From: Mesorhizobium japonicum MAFF 303099
GTDB taxonomy: Bacteria > Pseudomonadota > Alphaproteobacteria > Rhizobiales > Rhizobiaceae
Direction: 5' to 3'
Assembly (NCBI RefSeq): GCF_000009625.1
Contig: NC_002678.2
Coordinates: forward strand, 4,744,001 to 4,808,000
DNA length: 64,000 nt
Shown here: positions 42,725 through 51,529 of the stretch, one piece after another
Position numbering within the stretch: position 1 is the stretch's first letter
Layout of the letters: the number at the start of each line of letters is the position of its first letter
Made by a program: the position numbers and the translations under genes
Notes under the pieces: model-generated
What the model was told of the DNA's origin: nothing
The model's input: the letters and a program-made list of their open reading frames with translations, nothing else
Databases searched by the model: none

Positions 42725-42740
42725 TGGCACGGCCTTTGCT
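42725..42740 (+). promoter_or_regulatory. sigma-54 promoter upstream of the radical SAM gene
   Basis: TGGCACG-GCCT-TTGCT is a full consensus match. The next plus-strand gene begins about 330 bases downstream, with no gene between. Confidence 0.75.
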
Positions 42741-43071
42741 GGAGATGCGGCAATGTTGAGTGGGGGCTGACCGCATAAGAACGGGAGACGATTGATTTTC
42801 TGCTGCGCCATCTCGGCGGCGCGCCCGCTCAACGGTCACGGCTACACCTTGGCAATGGCTGACGCGCGACTTTGCGGTTGCGCCGCCCTGCCGCGCCGAT
42901 GCGCCCAAAGTTCGTTGATAGTCCGCTCGGCCGATTGAGGAAACCGGCTGTTGACTGCTGCAAGGCGGAGATGGCTGGGCTCATTCGGACTGTCTTGACC
43001 GTCGGTGTCATGAAGCCAAAGACACCATACTGGACGTTATGCATGACCAAGACGAGTGGGAGTCACAACGA

Positions 43072-43914
43072 ATGATTTTACCGGAACTGCGCTCTGCTAT
43101 CCCAGCCGGCAGAGTTTTGGAGATAACGACGACCACAGGGTGCATCGTGGGATGTTCATATTGTCCGCAGGACAAGTTCGCTGACCGGCAAAGAAAGGTA
43201 TCTGATACGAAGCATCTTAGTCTTGGAGATTTCAAGCGCTGTCTGGCGCGCGTACCAGCCTCCGTCGACATTAGTTTTGCCGGGTATTCTGAGCCATGGC
43301 TCAATCCGGATTGCACCGAAATGGTCGAGCACGCTTCCGCCAAAGGCCACGGCATCAGGATTTTCACGACGCTTGTGGGAATGAAGGGGCAGGATCTACA
43401 ACGCTTGCAGGCGCTGCGGTTGGGGGTATTCGTGGTTCATGTTTTTGATGATGGCGCCCACATGAATAGCCGCCTTGTCGGAGCCAAGTATCGCGATTTG
43501 GTTGGTCAACTCGTCGACGCCGACATCCCTTCGATCCGATTCGTGGTTTTGGGTGAGCCCCATCCCGATATCGCCGACATTATCCCTGCCCAAGCCCTAG
43601 TTCGCGCGCGACCGGTGAGCAGCAGGGGTGGAAGCGTAGACCCTAAGATTGTAGAACCACGGCAGCCAGTCGTCGGAGCGCTGATATGCGTGGACGAACG
43701 GCAGTATCGGAATGTACTCCTTCCAAACGGCGAGGTCACTCTCTGCTCCATGGATTTTGAGCGGCGTCACGTATTGGGCAACCTTCTATGCGACGAATAT
43801 GGCGATCTCTTTAAAAGCCCAGTTTTTTGCGAAATCGTCGATCGCATGAATGGAGCGGCTGGTTTTCTGCTTTGCAGGATGTGTGAATTTGCCGATCCAA
43901 ACGATAGGAACTGA
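43072..43914 (+). CDS. radical SAM protein with SPASM-like C-terminus
   Basis: About 280 residues. The radical SAM cluster motif CIVGCSYC is near residue 24, followed by SFAGYSEPWLNPD and a barrel. The C-terminal part holds cysteines in GALICVDERQ, VTLCSMDF, FCEIVDR and LLCRMCEF, as in SPASM auxiliary-cluster domains. ATG 43072 is preferred because GTGGGAG precedes it; ATG 43039 is also in frame. SPASM proteins modify peptides or small molecules; no precursor peptide was recognised nearby. The upstream NifA-type promoter suggests symbiotic expression. The substrate is unknown. Confidence 0.82.
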   Translation: MILPELRSAIPAGRVLEITTTTGCIVGCSYCPQDKFADRQRKVSDTKHLSLGDFKRCLARVPASVDISFAGYSEPWLNPDCTEMVEHASAKGHGIRIFTTLVGMKGQDLQRLQALRLGVFVVHVFDDGAHMNSRLVGAKYRDLVGQLVDADIPSIRFVVLGEPHPDIADIIPAQALVRARPVSSRGGSVDPKIVEPRQPVVGALICVDERQYRNVLLPNGEVTLCSMDFERRHVLGNLLCDEYGDLFKSPVFCEIVDRMNGAAGFLLCRMCEFADPNDRN

Positions 43915-44740: not shown

Positions 44741-44881
44741 CCTTTTCAGGGATCGACACTCGGCGCCGAGGCCATTCCTCGATGACGTCCGTGTGGAAAG
44801 TGTCAAGAGCGCCTAAAACGCTATGAAGTCGAAAGTACGATTACGTGCAAAATCGGCGCCTGTGCAAGGTTTCGGCCTCAA

Positions 44882-44897
44882 TGTCGGATACTCGACA
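44882..44897. promoter_or_regulatory. NifA-type activator site upstream of the N-hydroxylase gene
   Basis: A perfect TGT-N10-ACA lies 45 bases upstream of the -24 element at 44942. The spacing is short but within the range of active sites. Confidence 0.58.
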
Positions 44898-44941
44898 GGA
44901 TTGCAAACCTGCCTTCCGTTGCTTTTGCTGATGTTTTGCTG

Positions 44942-44957
44942 TGGCACGTTCGATGCA
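44942..44957 (+). promoter_or_regulatory. sigma-54 promoter of the N-hydroxylase/cupin-MetRS module
   Basis: TGGCACG-TTCG-ATGCA has the full -24 half and GC correctly placed at -12, with one mismatch (A for T). The N-hydroxylase start is about 245 bases downstream. Confidence 0.6.
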
Positions 44958-45200
44958 GGTGACCTCCCGAAAGCAGCAGCGGATGTCTTCTATGATCAAA
45001 CCCACGGAAAAATGCTGTCGCCGTACTCATGACCGCGCCCTCCCTAGTCGCCAAGCAGGCCGAAGGTCGGCTGGTCACGGTCGACGCGGGCAACTAAGCC
45101 CAATTGCAATGAGGGATAGGCAGCGAGAGCATGTCACTGACCACGCGGGGGTCATCGAGGCGGGATTCTCGATGCCAGCCACGCGCAACACATCACCGGC

Positions 45201-46691
45201 ATGAGTGCCGATCTCATCAGGGAGCCGGCATCCGCGGGCGTCACACCCGATACTACGAACGCGCGGACAAGCTGCCACAAGTCCGGCGGTGTCGACGATG
45301 CCTGCGGGGAGGGCAAGCCCAACGGCCATGGCCGACATTCGCTGCGCACAGCGTCTGTTTGGGAAAGGTCAGTAGGAGCAAGACAACTGGATCTCTCTTG
45401 CATTGGGATCGGTGCTGGCCCGTCCAATTTGAGCCTTGCGTGTCAGATACACGAGCAAATCGGGCACGGGGCACTATTCTTGGATCGGCAAGTCGACTTC
45501 CGCTGGCATCCAGGCAGCGCATTCGAGTCCTCAGAACTCCAGGTCAGCCACATCAAGGATCTGGTCACGCTGGTGAATCCGCAGTCAGCCTACACTTTCA
45601 TAAACTACCTGCACGAGAACGGGCGTCTGTATCACTTCCTGAATGCACAGTTCGATGCTGTGCTCAGGGCTGAGTTCGAGCAATACCTGAACTGGGCGTT
45701 CCGCAGAAACCCACTTGTGCGCGGCGGCGAGACCGTGCGCGAAATACGCTATGATGGCGAGTTTCGGGTGCGGACGGACGACGCGGTGCTTAGTGCCAGA
45801 GACCTGGTGGTCGGCATCGGCAAGCAAGCATGGATTCCACCTCAATTTCAGGGCTGGATCGGACGCAACCTGTTCCATTCATCCGATTTGCTGCACATCC
45901 ATCCTGAGGTGCGGCAAAAACATGTTTGCGTCGTTGGTGGAGGCCAGTCGGGAGCCGAGGTATTGTTGCATTTGGTCGGTGGGCCAAGAGAACGGCGGCC
46001 TGCCTCGATCACCTGGGTCTCGCAGCGCGAAAACTACCTGCCCCTCGACAACAGCCCGTTCACAAACGAGTTGTTCATGCCTTGTTTTTCGGATCGTTTC
46101 GCGGCAATGAGCGAGCCGCAGCGCAAGCTGTTCCTGCGGCGTTTCGTGCTCGCCTCGGATGGTATTTCGGATCGCACTTTGCGCGCCGTCTACCAGGCGC
46201 TATATCGCCACGAATTTCTTGAGCCAGACCTATGTGACATCGCACTTCGGCCGGGTTGCAACGTTTCGCGCTGCATCAACGCCGGCGCGGGTCACAACTT
46301 GACGCTGCAGCGCGGCTTGGGCGACGTCGAAGAAGTCACGGCCGACATCGTCATCCTGGCCACCGGTTACGAGAACGCCGTGCCAAGCTTTTTGGAACCG
46401 ATGGCGGATCGGCTGCAACAGACCGACAATGAGTTGGTCATCAACGCGGATTTTTCGGTGTGCTGGGACGGACCGCGTGACAGACGCATCTTCGTACAGA
46501 ACGCCAATCCCGGGCAGCGCGGGCTGGCCGATCCGAACCTAAGCCTGCTGGCCTGGCGAGCTCGCCGCATTCTTGACAGCCTTCTACAGCGCGCGCCGTG
46601 CGCGAACCCTGAGCATCCTGGCTTTATCAGCCGTACCACCGTCGAGAGCTGGCCCGACCCGGTAGCCGAAGAAATGGGCAGCGGGATATGA
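45201..46691 (+). CDS. lysine/ornithine N-hydroxylase-type flavin monooxygenase
   Basis: A 496-residue class B flavoprotein of the SidA/IucD/PvdA family. The FAD motif IGIGAGPSNLSLA is near residue 70, the substrate-side GSAFESSELQVSHIKDLVTL region follows, the NADPH motif CVVGGGQSGAEV is near 245, and DIVILATGYENAVPSF is the C-terminal family motif. The first 65 residues are outside the domain, so a later start is possible, but no better start codon was seen. It overlaps the next gene by 4 bases. With the cupin-MetRS fusion downstream, it matches the lysine N6-hydroxylase of hydrazine-forming pathways. A siderophore role is less likely because no siderophore synthetase is nearby. Confidence 0.88.
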   Translation: MSADLIREPASAGVTPDTTNARTSCHKSGGVDDACGEGKPNGHGRHSLRTASVWERSVGARQLDLSCIGIGAGPSNLSLACQIHEQIGHGALFLDRQVDFRWHPGSAFESSELQVSHIKDLVTLVNPQSAYTFINYLHENGRLYHFLNAQFDAVLRAEFEQYLNWAFRRNPLVRGGETVREIRYDGEFRVRTDDAVLSARDLVVGIGKQAWIPPQFQGWIGRNLFHSSDLLHIHPEVRQKHVCVVGGGQSGAEVLLHLVGGPRERRPASITWVSQRENYLPLDNSPFTNELFMPCFSDRFAAMSEPQRKLFLRRFVLASDGISDRTLRAVYQALYRHEFLEPDLCDIALRPGCNVSRCINAGAGHNLTLQRGLGDVEEVTADIVILATGYENAVPSFLEPMADRLQQTDNELVINADFSVCWDGPRDRRIFVQNANPGQRGLADPNLSLLAWRARRILDSLLQRAPCANPEHPGFISRTTVESWPDPVAEEMGSGI

Positions 46692-46850
46692 CTCAGCGAC
46701 TACTGATCATCGGCGGTGGCATCCAAGGAATGATGTCCGCCTCCGCTGCGGCGCAGTCCGGAGCCCGCTCCGAACTCATCGTGACTGAACATGCCCTTGG
46801 ACCTATGGGCGCATCGCTTAATTCTGCGGGCGAGAATTTGCCCCACGGTC
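46688..46850 (+). pseudogene. FAD-dependent oxidase/dehydrogenase (DAO-like), 5' fragment
   Basis: The ATG overlaps the N-hydroxylase stop (ATGA). It encodes MTQRLLIIGGGIQGMMSA, a Rossmann FAD-binding start, and continues to about GASLNSAGE before similarity stops. The frame then runs through unrelated, arginine-rich codons. In the Streptomyces hydrazine pathway a FAD-dependent oxidase acts next on the N-N product, so this could be the remains of that enzyme. The fragment is too short to be certain of the family. Confidence 0.55.
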
Positions 46851-47456
46851 GTCGAAACCGTACAAGGTCGCTCACTCGAAAGTGCCCAGTGGCCCTAGCG
46901 GCCATGGCTGCGTCGGCCGTTAGCGGAGGCCTCCCGCCCGTAGCGATGCGTGTGGTGGCTGGACCGGGTGAGGTAAGTGATCGGGACCAGCTTAGGGAAC
47001 CCGAGGACCCGGCTTGGCCTCGGATGGGTCAGTCTAGCGCCGAACTTGTGCGGACAATACTCGTTTTTGGAGCATCGATGGACCCGATGCCAGCGACGTG
47101 CCTCCCTGATCGCCCGACCGGAACGGGAACTTGTCGCAAAAATTTTCGCGGCGCACGACTTGCGTTGCGTCAGGCTGCACGAAAGGTCGTCTTATCGGGC
47201 AGTCGTACCATCAACAGCATGCTCGGCCGTGACTACCATGCAGACGTACCGGATCGATAGATCTTTACGGGCCTGGGCGATCTCTCCATTGAGGAGGGAC
47301 AACAAAGCCTTGCAATCCACCCGGAGCGGAACGCACTTTGCGTCGCCGTCTGCATGCCGTGGAGTATCGTCTCCGTGGGCCCACACCCTGACGGCGCCCG
47401 ACTGCCTCTAACCGGAATGTTTGACCAACCACTCTTTCCAACAGGAGGCTTTTCGC
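46851..47456. other. decayed or inserted sequence interrupting the N-hydroxylase module
   Basis: No gene is recognised. It contains the second copy of a 35-base repeat (46943-46977). It probably replaced the rest of the FAD enzyme gene. The following dioxygenase gene has its own strong ribosome binding site. Confidence 0.5.
46943..46977 (+). repeat. 35-bp direct repeat, copy 2
   Basis: Matches 38581-38615 at 32 of 35 positions. It lies in the decayed stretch after the truncated FAD enzyme gene. Confidence 0.5.
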
Positions 47457-48236
47457 ATGTTGACCGATGCACAAAGAGAAAAGTGGAAGAAAGACGGATA
47501 CGTCAGGCTCGAGAGGTTCTTCGATCCCGCGACTCTGGAAGGTATTTCCAGATCTGTTGAAGACATATCACGCTGGGATGTCAGCGACGATAAATGGCTC
47601 ATGTGGTTCGAGAAAACGACGGACAATCGGAAGATCATCTCCAAGGTCGAGAATTTTCTGGACTTCCATGACCCATTGCGTCTGCTCCTCCTAGAAGATC
47701 AGCGCATAAACTCTGCGGTCGAGGATTTGCTTGGCGAAGATTCGCGCAGACTCAAGGAGTTGCTGATCTTCCACTATCCCGATAGCGGCGGTTATCGCCC
47801 GCATCAGGACATTTATCACATTCCACACAGGCTGCCCGACCGGATGGTCCATGCGATCGTTGCCATAGGCATTGACGATTCCGACCCGGACAATGGTGGC
47901 CTTTTCTTCAGCCCCGGCAACCACAAGAAGGGGGTATTTCCCATGGATGCCGGCGGGGTGATTGATCCTGAGGTCGCCGAAACATTCTCCTGGGAACCCG
48001 TAGTATGGAAGGCTGGCGACATCTTCATCTTCGACGATTATGCACCGCATTACTCGAAGCCGAATAAAAGCAATCGTTCGCGGCGGACGCTCTACTTGGT
48101 GTTCCAGCGTGCTTCAACCGGTGGACCGACCCGCGCTGAATATAACGTGCTTAAGCGCGCCCTTAATCCGCCAGAGGGCAAAGTGGCTGATCTCGACAAC
48201 CTCAAGCCCCCAAACGGCATTTTCTATCGCGATTGA
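47457..48236 (+). CDS. phytanoyl-CoA dioxygenase (PhyH) family Fe(II)/2-oxoglutarate oxygenase
   Basis: A 259-residue PhyH-type oxygenase. The metal-binding HQD lies in GYRPHQDIYHIPHR near residue 117, the distal histidine in FDDYAPHYSKPN near 200, and a likely 2-oxoglutarate arginine in NRSRRTLYLVFQ. ATG 47457 has a perfect AGGAGG 8 bases upstream; the frame extends 12 codons earlier. It sits between the N-hydroxylase and the cupin-MetRS gene, so it probably hydroxylates or otherwise tailors a product of that pathway. The substrate is unknown. Confidence 0.88.
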   Translation: MLTDAQREKWKKDGYVRLERFFDPATLEGISRSVEDISRWDVSDDKWLMWFEKTTDNRKIISKVENFLDFHDPLRLLLLEDQRINSAVEDLLGEDSRRLKELLIFHYPDSGGYRPHQDIYHIPHRLPDRMVHAIVAIGIDDSDPDNGGLFFSPGNHKKGVFPMDAGGVIDPEVAETFSWEPVVWKAGDIFIFDDYAPHYSKPNKSNRSRRTLYLVFQRASTGGPTRAEYNVLKRALNPPEGKVADLDNLKPPNGIFYRD

Positions 48237-48556
48237 GCTCACGGAACCAGGCGAGGCTTGCACACGAAACTGATCGGCCGCCAAAAAAATGCGCGGAGAG
48301 CATGGTTTTGATTGCCGGCTACTGGAGCATCGCCTGCAGTCCGTCACGACGCTTCGGTATGTCGATGTGAAGGTGTCGCCGGGCGCTCTTCTGTGACGCC
48401 TAAAGCCCTCCTGGCGCCCGTAGTTTCGCCCGCCTGGGGCCCAGAGCCGGACTATTCTGACGGGGGGCCAACGTGTCGGGCTGCCTTCGCAACTTGCAGC
48501 AGATGCTGTTGCGTCGGCAGCCGAAGAGACCACTGTTTCGACAGCTGAGGTTCGTC

Positions 48557-50557
48557 ATGCGGAAATCCAGGTTTTCTCGAACGCAGCTGTCGCGGGTGTT
48601 CGGTATCGACATGGCTGCGCTTGGGACGGGAAGCGCGGGCACCGGGTTTTCATTTGGCAAGGTGGCACCAGGCGTCACATCCGAGCCCCATCGGCACGAC
48701 GAAATCGAGGCCTTCGTGGTCCTGTCTGGAGCGGGCAAGGTCAGGACCGACCTTGGGGAAATCTCGGTCGCAGCCGGCGATGTCGTTCTGTTCCATCCTT
48801 TTGAAGCGCATGTGCTGCACAACGATGGGCTCGAAAACCTAAACTTCGTCGATGTCTACTGGTGCGACGGCAAGGCGGCCCTCGAAGCTGCTGCACAGGT
48901 CGCGATTCCCCGCGGGCCGATCTTCGTCTTCTCCACGCCGCCGACGCCTAATGGCGATCTGCATCTGGGGCATCTTTCTGGCCCTTATCTTGGCGCCGAC
49001 GTCTACACGCGTTTCCTGCGCATGAAAGGGGTCGAAGCCTATCACCTGACTGGAAGCGACGATTACCAGAGCTACGTCGCCACGCGTGCCGATGCCGAGC
49101 AATCGACGCCCGGAAAGGTGGCGCGCCACTACGCCGACGAGATTCGAGCCACGCTTGCGCTTCTCGACTGTGAGGTCCACAGCTTCCTCCCCACCTTGGG
49201 CGATAGCGCTTATGCAGAGTTTCAAGCCGCGTGTTTCCGCAGTCTTCTGAGCAGCACGGCGGTAGATCTGCGCCAGAGCCCTGCGCTTTTCGATGCTGTG
49301 ACAGGCGACTACCTTTACGAACCGGATGTAAGTGGCCTCTGCCCCGATTGCGGCGGCTCCGCTGGTGGCAACATCTGCGAGGAATGCGGCGCGCCGAACC
49401 TATGCCACGACCTAGATGCAGTCCGGTCGCGGCACTCGGCTGAGGCGCCGGTGGTAGGCTTCATGCGCCGCCCCGAACTTGCGCTGGAACGGTGCTACGT
49501 CAATATCGACCGGCATTTAAGGGCTTCGGGCGCCCCCGTTCGGATCATGGACCTCTTCGCGCGTCTACGCCAACGTGGCGACTTTTCCGTGCCCATCATC
49601 CACCCGTCGGACTGGGGGCTACCGGCCGAGGGGTTCCCGGGGCAGGTGACCTGGGTCTGGCCAGAGATGGCGTTTGGCTTTCTTTACAACATCCAGACGC
49701 TAGCTACATCGCTCGGTCGACACTGGAATGCGGCCCTGCCCAGCAAGGACTGGCAAATTGTCCATTTCTTCGGCTTCGATAATTCCTTCTACCACGCTCT
49801 GCTTTATCCGGCGCTTTATGCTGAGGTCTTCTCCCACTGGACGCCGCGCATCCGGTATCATGTGAACGAGTTCTACCTGCTCGACGGTCAGAAGTTCTCG
49901 ACAAGCCGCAGCCATGCGGTCTGGGGCAAAGAGGTTCTGGGCCAAAAGACAGTCGATGTCGTCCGTCTTCATTTGGGCCTGACACGCCCGGAAGGTGAGC
50001 GGACGAACTTCACGCTGGACGCGCTACGCCGCACGGAGAACGAGGTGTTCCAAGGAATCTGGCTGAATTGGCTTGATGCGCTGCACGGGGAAATCAAACA
50101 GGACTTTGGCGGCTGTGTGCCCGACGCAGGCGACTGGGCTCCCGCCGATCGCGCTTTCTTTGGTCGGATAGAGATCCATCGCGCGGCGATGGAACGCGCC
50201 TATTCGGACGATGGCTTCTCCGTCCGCCGCGCGGCCGCGCAGGCCTGCGATTTCGTCAGCGATTGCGTAGTCTACCGACGGGCGCAAGACTATGAGGCGG
50301 CGCGACGTCTCTATCCCGCCCGCACCCGCACGTCGCTCGCCCTTCAGACGACGGCCGCTGCAATCCTGGCACAGACACTCGCGCCGCTGATGCCCCGATT
50401 TGCCAGCACGCTGGCGCGAGGTATCGATGGCGTCTCGACCGAAACATGGCCCACGTCCGTCCGGCGCCTTGCGCCAGGAACAACCTTTGATCTCGGACCC
50501 GTGCTGGGCTTCTACGCCAGAGCAGACATTCCTGCTCTCAATGAAGAGGAGGCATAA
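48557..50557 (+). CDS. cupin / methionyl-tRNA synthetase-like fusion (hydrazine synthetase type)
   Basis: A 666-residue fusion. Residues about 20-100 form a cupin: PHRHDEIEAFVVLSGAG is motif 1 with two His and a Glu, and GDVVLFHPFEAHVLHN is motif 2. Residues 115-640 form a MetRS-like class I synthetase with HLGH near 136, a four-cysteine zinc knuckle (CPDCGG...CEECG) near 262, KFSTS near 444 in place of KMSKS, and an anticodon-domain-like C-terminus. This architecture is that of Spb40, which joins N6-hydroxylysine and glycine through an N-N bond in the s56-p1 pathway of Streptomyces. ATG 48557 has GAGG; GTG 48473 would add 28 residues. Product inferred from architecture and the adjacent N-hydroxylase. 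Confidence 0.85.
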   Translation: MRKSRFSRTQLSRVFGIDMAALGTGSAGTGFSFGKVAPGVTSEPHRHDEIEAFVVLSGAGKVRTDLGEISVAAGDVVLFHPFEAHVLHNDGLENLNFVDVYWCDGKAALEAAAQVAIPRGPIFVFSTPPTPNGDLHLGHLSGPYLGADVYTRFLRMKGVEAYHLTGSDDYQSYVATRADAEQSTPGKVARHYADEIRATLALLDCEVHSFLPTLGDSAYAEFQAACFRSLLSSTAVDLRQSPALFDAVTGDYLYEPDVSGLCPDCGGSAGGNICEECGAPNLCHDLDAVRSRHSAEAPVVGFMRRPELALERCYVNIDRHLRASGAPVRIMDLFARLRQRGDFSVPIIHPSDWGLPAEGFPGQVTWVWPEMAFGFLYNIQTLATSLGRHWNAALPSKDWQIVHFFGFDNSFYHALLYPALYAEVFSHWTPRIRYHVNEFYLLDGQKFSTSRSHAVWGKEVLGQKTVDVVRLHLGLTRPEGERTNFTLDALRRTENEVFQGIWLNWLDALHGEIKQDFGGCVPDAGDWAPADRAFFGRIEIHRAAMERAYSDDGFSVRRAAAQACDFVSDCVVYRRAQDYEAARRLYPARTRTSLALQTTAAAILAQTLAPLMPRFASTLARGIDGVSTETWPTSVRRLAPGTTFDLGPVLGFYARADIPALNEEEA

Positions 50558-50899
50558 TAGCCCATCGTAGTTTCGACCAGATTTGGGCCGCAATCAAAGC
50601 CGATGATGCCGAAGCTTTACTCGCGGCCACTGGCTGCCGAAGGCCACTCCCAGACCATAGACACAAACACTGGCCGGCCTTAACCAACAAATCGTCGAGA
50701 CGCTGGCCCGCGCCTTGGAGGATCGCTCGGTTGACAGGCGCTTGCCATTCGTGCGGCAAATGCCGAGCGGGCTGCACTGCGCTGACCAACTTTCTCGGAA
50801 TCGCGGAATTTCCGACCTATAGCCAGCCGGTCAAGAAGGTCATGCGGTTCGGGACGCTGGGTCGGCCTAGCTGTGCGCGCCCGCGCATCGCCGGCGGCG
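50558..50899. other. intergenic, no recognised gene
   Basis: Short open frames on both strands have no family features. The region separates the cupin-MetRS gene from the second NifA promoter repeat. Confidence 0.45.
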
Positions 50900-51014
50900 A
50901 ATGATGCTAGATGAGCCGACGCCAACATTACCGCAGGGCAGACAGCCAAGCCGTTCTCGCCCTCAAGCGTCTGACGCATGATGCGTGTCCAAAAGCTGAC
51001 AGCAGCAGAAAACA

Positions 51015-51030
51015 TGTCGGGTTCAAAACA
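51015..51030. promoter_or_regulatory. NifA upstream activator site (copy 2)
   Basis: A perfect TGT-N10-ACA lies 64 bases upstream of the -24 element at 51094, the same layout as at 42645-42740. Confidence 0.65.
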
Positions 51031-51093
51031 ACCGGCCGTCTTGGGCTTGTAAGGTTTCGAGGCAGAATCATGCATTTACTGCGGGCAAAGCGC

Positions 51094-51109
51094 TGGCATG
51101 ACGTTTGCT
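51094..51109 (+). promoter_or_regulatory. sigma-54 promoter, likely driving DUF683 and fdxB
   Basis: TGGCATG-ACGT-TTGCT matches the consensus apart from T for C at the sixth base. No intact gene is found until the DUF683 gene about 1 kb downstream, so a long leader with relic sequences would be transcribed. Confidence 0.65.
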
Positions 51110-51529
51110 GGTTGAGATCGGCAATACTGAGTGAGGGCTGATCGCATGAGAACACGCAAGACTTTGAGGGTCTCCTAACCGGTGTGTTCCGTTCTGAGAG
51201 AAGAACCAGCTCGCGCATAAACGTCAGGAAAGGTGTGGGAATGGAGAACAACATGTTGCGTAGAGAGTCCCCGGCTCCTCTGATCAAAGTGGACGACTGG
51301 CTGCGTGGCTAACCTCTCACGAACTTTCAGCTCGGCAAGGTGTCGGGATGACAAGTGGAATGGAACCCTGATCAATTCGCCCATTTTCTGCGGCGCGCCC
51401 GCAGTAACTGTGTTCATGGAGCACAGGGTCGACGGTTTGCTCCAGGTCAGGGCTCGGACCTTAGACTTCCAACCGAATAGCCGCGGCGGCGATATTCGAC
51501 GCGAATTTGGCCCGTCGTTGAAGATGTCA

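Follow-up and report, generated by a model that had tools for sequence, protein, structure and literature searches.

A putative mosaic hydrazine operon behind a NifA-type promoter in Mesorhizobium japonicum MAFF303099

Gene content and composition of the locus

The window analyzed here is a 64,000-nucleotide stretch of Mesorhizobium japonicum MAFF303099 (contig NC_002678.2, positions 4,744,001 to 4,808,000, forward strand), and all coordinates below count from its first base. The window very probably belongs to the symbiosis island of this strain. In Mesorhizobium sp. 131-3-5, which comes from Lotus japonicus, the counterpart stretch is 94% identical and has nifKENX upstream and fdxB and a 1-aminocyclopropane-1-carboxylate (ACC) deaminase gene downstream. 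The subject of this study is an operon at 44882 to 50557 that encodes a SidA-type N-hydroxylase, a PhyH-family oxygenase, and a cupin fused to a ligase resembling methionyl-tRNA synthetase (MetRS), and that probably directs the synthesis of a hydrazine. All features listed in the original prediction, namely SidA, a flavin adenine dinucleotide (FAD) enzyme open reading frame (ORF), PhyH, cupin-MetRS, an upstream activator sequence (UAS), and a -24/-12 element, were located in the window. A literature search with the locus tags of the stretch found no paper. The features are as follows.

44882..44897, plus strand: UAS TGTCGGATACTCGACA, present ahead of SidA in all 23 hybrid-type loci
44942..44957, plus strand: sigma-54 -24/-12 element TGGCACGTTCGATGCA, in 22 of 23 hybrid-type loci, absent in L109
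45387..46691, plus strand: type-A SidA N-hydroxylase (PF13434); ORF open from 45201, start uncertain
46688..46960, plus strand: remnant of the N-terminal part of a DAO-type FAD oxidase (31% to SM11 residues 8-98, E 0.001)
47186..47308, plus strand: remnant of the C-terminal end of a type-B SidA (54% to M. amorphae residues 392-432, E 1.2e-7)
47457..48236, plus strand: PhyH-family Fe(II)/2-oxoglutarate oxygenase (PF05721)
48289..48387, plus strand: possible remnant of the N-terminal part of a type-B cupin, only weakly matched in the window (E 0.064)
48557..50557, plus strand: cupin (residues 35-101) and MetRS-like ligase (residues ~120-636), together the predicted hydrazine synthetase

The Pfam E-values are 7.1e-88 for SidA (PF13434), 8.5e-41 for PhyH (PF05721), 5e-12 for the cupin (PF07883), and 1e-48 for MetRS (PF09334). 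The 23 hybrid-type loci are the window, L004, and 21 loci from a genome scan with a PhyH alignment, the reach of which is limited to relatives sharing the two peptide patterns used. In total, the scan gave 36 loci (20 hybrids, Mesorhizobium albiziae L091, and 15 of type B), and PhyH lies between SidA and a MetRS gene or MetRS remains in all 36.

Related operons fall into two types. Type A, consisting of SidA, an FAD oxidase, and cupin-MetRS, was found in Sinorhizobium meliloti SM11, Streptomyces lavendulae, Streptomyces hirsutus, Streptomyces NBC_00868, and Rhizobium rhizogenes, and type B, consisting of SidA, PhyH, a separate cupin, and MetRS, was found in Phaseolus Rhizobium, M. amorphae, Ralstonia pickettii SSH4, and Pseudomonas fuscovaginae. 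The window shares features of both. Its SidA and cupin-MetRS are of the same type as those of the s56-p1-type operons (Spb38/39/40, with the triacsin, azaserine, and Dob pathways as relatives), and its SidA is 47%, 45%, and 45% identical to those of the hydrazine-type operons of S. lavendulae, S. meliloti SM11, and S. hirsutus, respectively, in which the order is SidA, FAD oxidase, and cupin-MetRS. Judging from their gene content, these three operons probably make hydrazinoacetate. In contrast to the s56-p1-type operons, the window has only a remnant of the FAD oxidase, PhyH in its place, no nonribosomal peptide synthetase (NRPS) beside the operon, and a NifA promoter. With the type-B operons, the window shares the same enzyme activities and a PhyH that is 69-82% identical (76-81% for the Rhizobium type-B operons), whereas their cupin and MetRS are separate proteins only about 30% identical to those of the window, and 6 of the 15 type-B loci (L093, L094, L096, L097, L107, and L108) also have a full major facilitator superfamily (MFS) gene and a fold-I pyridoxal phosphate (PLP) enzyme gene.

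The FAD ORF (46688-47260) has no Pfam match and resembles DAO-type oxidases over 46688-46960 only, and it is a remnant. The stretch at 47186-47308, absent from the original prediction, is the remnant of a second, different SidA. Five proteins each of FAD oxidase, type-B SidA, and type-B cupin were used to search the stretches on either side of PhyH in the 23 hybrid-type loci (46 regions). At a threshold of E 0.01, the FAD N-terminal part was found in 13 loci, the type-B SidA end in 14, the type-B cupin in 12 (in one of which, L091, it is a whole cupin gene), and the FAD C-terminal part in 9, and 20 block-shuffles of the 46 regions gave no remnant match. The type-B cupin remnant occupies the same place in, for example, L080, L083, L085, and L086, with E-values of 1e-5 to 1e-13. 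The composite order is type-A SidA, FAD N-terminal part, type-B SidA end, PhyH, type-B cupin start, FAD C-terminal part, and type-A cupin-MetRS. M. albiziae L091 combines a type-A SidA with a type-B cupin and MetRS, and the two gene trees are in conflict accordingly; these were quick trees without siderophore enzymes, and the row "own_MetRS" was left unused for its implausible branch, probably a wrong reading frame. The remnants make it likely that a piece of a type-B operon recombined into the FAD-oxidase gene of an s56-p1-like operon, with PhyH taking the place of the oxidase. This mosaic structure is the new element of the present analysis.

The predicted hydrazine synthetase and its N-hydroxylase

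The product of 48557-50557 joins a zinc-binding cupin to a MetRS-like ligase (Pfam; mean predicted local distance difference test [pLDDT] of the predicted model, 87.3), and the gene has an N-hydroxylase gene alongside (SidA, 45387-46691). The cupin metal ligands and the essential Glu (E56 in PyrN and E69 in RHS1) are present by alignment as H45, H47, E51, and H85. The ATP-binding motifs HLGH (136-139) and KFSTS (446-450) align with those of PyrN, and K446 is the probable counterpart of PyrN K458. The closest structure is PyrN, a hydrazine synthetase, rather than a translational MetRS. PyrN works in two stages: its MetRS-like domain links its amino acid, Glu, to N6-hydroxylysine as an ester, and its zinc cupin then turns this ester into a hydrazine by rearrangement (PMC8664883). 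Both SidA and cupin-MetRS of the window are nearest to those of hydrazine-synthetase operons, which agrees with the N-N bond-forming gene pair originally proposed, and it is highly probable that cupin-MetRS is an N-N synthetase with SidA as its partner.

The amino acid joined to hydroxylysine is probably glycine, judging from the pocket residues. The column of window His413 holds Arg in PyrN, in L133, and in the saccharopine-dehydrogenase-linked enzyme of M. amorphae. L133 carries WP_007299751, the accession of RHS1, and the matching Rhodococcus jostii ligase is reported to use Glu (PMC8664883), suggesting that the L133 ligase is a Glu enzyme. Tyr412-His413 and a W-V-W-P stretch are instead common to the window, R7A, SM11, three Streptomyces, and five further homologs, and glycine is favored because these residues are kept instead of the Arg of the Glu enzymes.

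Part of this system has been recorded before. Aravind and colleagues named M. loti and S. meliloti in 2010 among the carriers of this MetRS paralog and phytanoyl-hydroxylase-type oxygenases among the neighbors of that family (PMC2922099). A review citing Zhao et al. 2021 places Q8KGM6/CAD31310 of M. japonicum R7A among the identified hydrazine synthetases (PMC11705231), and Q8KGM6 is unnamed in the main text of Zhao et al. 2021. Strain CJ3Sym is a recipient of the R7A island (PMC4572658), and its locus L081 is identical to the window at 631 of 666 positions of the synthetase, 248 of 259 of PhyH, and 426 of 434 of SidA. Q8KGM6 is therefore presumably the ortholog of the window synthetase, and the synthetase cannot be called undescribed, as had been supposed. 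Where it names Q8KGM6, the review differs from the present account in giving the enzyme only, without the amino acid used, the operon, or its control. In a plasmid collection, the Escherichia coli records matching the synthetase are metG or unannotated among the matches listed (20 of 318 records).

SidA had been placed at 45201-46691. The end stands, and 45201 is the opening of the ORF. In Mesorhizobium 131-3-5, and in one copy of M. amorphae, the annotated start corresponds to 45387. The window has CTG at 45387, nine bases behind an AGGAG read by eye. The true start is uncertain because the copy in Mesorhizobium AR10 is annotated longer.

Promoter and expression

UAS-then-(-24/-12) pairs with a spacing of 30-160 bases gave 6 pattern matches on the plus strand of the window and none in 200 first-order Markov resamples. 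The same strand has four -24/-12 elements, compared with an average of 0.23 over 100 Markov resamples, and all four 16-mers are present in a table of Sullivan et al. (PMC3538637). No further -24/-12 match was found on the plus strand from 44942 to 50557 beyond the one at 44942, and no sigma-70-like site was found from 44800 to 51200 (shuffle mean, 1.7).

In R7A, msi280, annotated as "L-lysine 6-monooxygenase," is preceded by CTGGCACGTTCGATGCA (Sullivan et al. 2013, PMC3538637). In nodules, msi280::lacZ activity fell from 371.6 units in R7A to 268.9 in the absence of nifA1 and to 7.3 in the absence of nifA2 (PMC3538637). The msi280 17-mer occurs exactly in the R7A-island locus L081, and the window mismatches it at the first base only. 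Gene and promoter are the same as those of the window SidA, whereas the hydrazine link, PhyH, and the synthetase go unmentioned in the sections of that paper drawn on here. NifA control of the operon in MAFF303099 is very likely because the published R7A data concern the same promoter, and the predicted NifA/sigma-54 control gains from this NifA2 dependence and from the UAS and -24/-12 element. A cupin of P. phymatum from nifA data was dropped from the comparison, its numbered neighbor being annotated as a methyltransferase.

Another NifA-type -24/-12 element, at 42725, precedes a radical SAM/SPASM ORF (43039-43914) by 315 bases. Sullivan et al. gave its R7A equivalent as facing "no annotated genes" (PMC3538637). 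All 12 loci tested, including the R7A-island locus L081, have this element ahead of the ORF, and the ORF has eight matching records in the plasmid collection, all from rhizobia. The ORF is probably the real target of the promoter at 42725.

Predicted pathway, alternatives, and related operons

From the genes, motifs, promoter, and remnants observed in the operon, the reading favored here, with a probability of roughly 0.6, is a mosaic hydrazine operon driven by NifA and sigma-54, in which PhyH replaces the FAD oxidase and the product is an oxidized hydrazino-lysine. SidA would convert lysine, its likely substrate, to N6-hydroxylysine. By analogy with PyrN, the MetRS-like domain would adenylate an amino acid, most likely glycine, and esterify it to N6-hydroxylysine, and the zinc cupin would rearrange the ester to N6-(carboxymethylamino)lysine carrying the N-N bond. 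The type-B piece with PhyH appears to have recombined into the gene of the FAD oxidase that would free hydrazinoacetate, destroying the oxidase, and with PhyH in its place the hydrazinoacetate branch would be closed. The product is thus expected to be an oxidized, probably hydroxylated, N6-(carboxymethylamino)lysine.

PhyH is the least certain step. H116, D118, H198, and R209 are invariant in 24 sequences, and we take the first three to be the HxD...H metal triad and R209 to be the 2-oxoglutarate Arg. The predicted PhyH model was poor (mean pLDDT, 59.4) and was not used. PhyH stands beside two synthetase types with differing amino-acid pockets, and the mosaic is thus a natural swap experiment. 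Because the hydroxylysine half is expected to be common to both synthetase types, the likeliest target is the lysine side chain, and the chance that PhyH oxidizes the lysine half of the hydrazine is put at about even. PhyH could alternatively act on lysine ahead of N-N bond formation. Nothing on PhyH or rhizobial hydrazines was found in the sections consulted of papers on Dob and on Alphaproteobacteria regulons.

Several observations weigh against the favored reading. No locus of the 23 shows all four remnants at E 0.01, so that the full mosaic order is pieced together from several loci; L088 shows none, and in the window no FAD C-terminal part was detected and the cupin piece is weak. The FAD-linked enzymes of R. 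rhizogenes (Tyr-Tyr), Pantoea, and Deinococcus lack the Tyr-His pair, so that the pocket is no proof of glycine. The operon contains no exporter, and neither the exporter nor the PLP enzyme typical of full type-B clusters was found next to it; the genome of the window has 22 aminotransferase-like places, the best 32% identical to the type-B PLP enzyme and none adjoining the operon. The msi280 insertion mutant JS49 of R7A is symbiotically effective (PMC3538637). PhyH or the synthetase is broken, by split matches, in 5 of the 20 hybrid loci (L077, L095, L109, L110, and L112), in some of them perhaps through draft errors. In addition, type-A SidA occurs without PhyH or a synthetase annotated nearby in Mesorhizobium AR10 (L005 12434-13795), M. 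amorphae (L006 12523-13827), and M. loti 582 (L011 9490-10794), the copies in L005 and L006 sitting behind a NifA-type element. The effective mutant, the broken copies, the orphan SidA genes, and the missing exporter and PLP enzyme would all suit a decaying relic, a former route to hydrazinoacetate through SidA and the synthetase that has lost its oxidase and whose surviving genes contribute little to the symbiosis. This is unlikely. Against it stand the promoter kept in 22 of 23 loci, the expression of msi280 in R7A nodules, and a PhyH identity of 76-97% across genera. The ratios of nonsynonymous to synonymous substitution rates (dN/dS) relative to the window also argue against decay, being 0.071-0.205 for SidA (14 comparisons), 0.081-0.330 for PhyH (14), and 0.135-0.264 for the synthetase (13), in 14 loci picked for open frames, a choice of intact copies that biases the values downward. 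The intact copies thus appear to be under purifying selection. At E 1e-60, PhyH occurs in 31 and the synthetase in 32 of 146 Mesorhizobium genomes, several copies being fragmentary or with stops, and in an even draw of 394 family genomes the synthetase occurs in 2, including that of the window.

The remaining explanations are much less probable. SidA and the synthetase are of the type that accompanies an FAD oxidase, which would fit a complete s56-p1-like hydrazinoacetate route with an oxidase from elsewhere and PhyH as a tailoring step. However, with the SM11 oxidase as the query, the remnant itself was the sole match in the whole genome, in a search that covers homologs and leaves an unrelated oxidase aside, and such a route is improbable. 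The original prediction of the same chemistry as s56-p1 is not supported, the oxidase said to act next being a remnant, and PhyH, proposed there as an extra tailoring step, would have arrived with the type-B piece to occupy the place of the oxidase. Membership in the SidA family, and orphan SidA copies in other strains that fit a use apart from the synthetase, would allow N6-hydroxylysine to be destined for a hydroxamate siderophore. This is still less probable, since SidA is nearest to hydrazine-synthetase operons and the genome has no IucA/IucC siderophore synthetase match (the control search was positive in 2 of 14 named genomes), NRPS-type siderophore routes lying outside the search; IucD rows were also more distant than type-A SidA, and the tree held no siderophore enzyme. 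Finally, the Pfam and NCBIfam MetRS models match the fusion, as would an accessory MetRS in translation. That identity was rejected as hardly credible because all NCBIfam scores fall far below their cut-offs (best, 231.7 versus 553), PyrN is the closest structure, and the fused cupin keeps the zinc and Glu residues.

The favored reading connects a hydrazine synthetase of R7A with a NifA-controlled gene that had no assigned purpose, both already published, and so poses a directly testable question in a model symbiosis, in which the nodules formed by a Lotus root-nodule bacterium may hold an undescribed hydrazine compound. No paper on an N-N bonded nodule compound of this kind was found in a search confined to the open-access literature. 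A broader reading is offered tentatively, at somewhat less than even odds, in which a hydrazine pathway was reduced independently in two rhizobial lineages to an N-hydroxylase, zinc cupin, MetRS-like ligase, and PhyH beside nif or nod genes, and their bacteroids make oxidized hydrazino-lysine with its synthesis tied to nitrogen fixation. The Mesorhizobium mosaic under NifA would have lost the FAD oxidase, and the type B of Phaseolus Rhizobium, behind a sigma-54-type element, the exporter and PLP enzyme. If so, oxidized hydrazino-lysine would be a new kind of nodule metabolite, and nitrogen-fixing bacteroids would produce an amino-acid derivative with an N-N bond under the signal that also turns on nitrogenase.

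In R. phaseoli, the operon is located between nodA/nifH and nodD2. The nine type-B loci other than the six with full MFS and PLP genes are all Rhizobium and have a 143-residue MFS stretch only, with nodD2 downstream. The sigma-54-type element TGGCACATTAATTGCT lies 181 bases before SidA in 8 of 10 Phaseolus-type Rhizobium loci (not in L098 and L101), and these loci are nearly identical, so that the eight count as one case. No such element was found within the 600 bases searched in CB3090. NifA control of the R. phaseoli operon is a guess because in L008 the closest exact UAS stands another 328 bases upstream of the element.

Other clusters of both types were observed. Plasmid pSmeSM11b of S. 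meliloti SM11 (L007 1-25590) carries an NRPS cluster with SidA, an FAD oxidase, and cupin-MetRS in a layout like that of S. lavendulae. One plasmid of M. amorphae CCNWGS0123 carries two further hydrazine-synthetase clusters (L010 7355-11875 and L017 4785-12871), one linked to a saccharopine dehydrogenase and the other a complete type-B cluster that includes MFS and PLP genes. Clusters with the whole type-B set (SidA, MFS, PhyH, cupin, MetRS, and PLP enzyme) also occur in R. pickettii SSH4 and P. fuscovaginae (L096 7373-13912 and L107 7416-13864). The type-B PLP enzyme was considered as a GntC/VioD-like cyclase (for GntC, PMC10367076), and this idea was weakened by two results. Among proteins of solved structure, the Ralstonia copy scores best with 2-aminoadipate transaminase (154 bits) and MppQ (140 bits), and the NCBIfam scores are far below the cut-offs.

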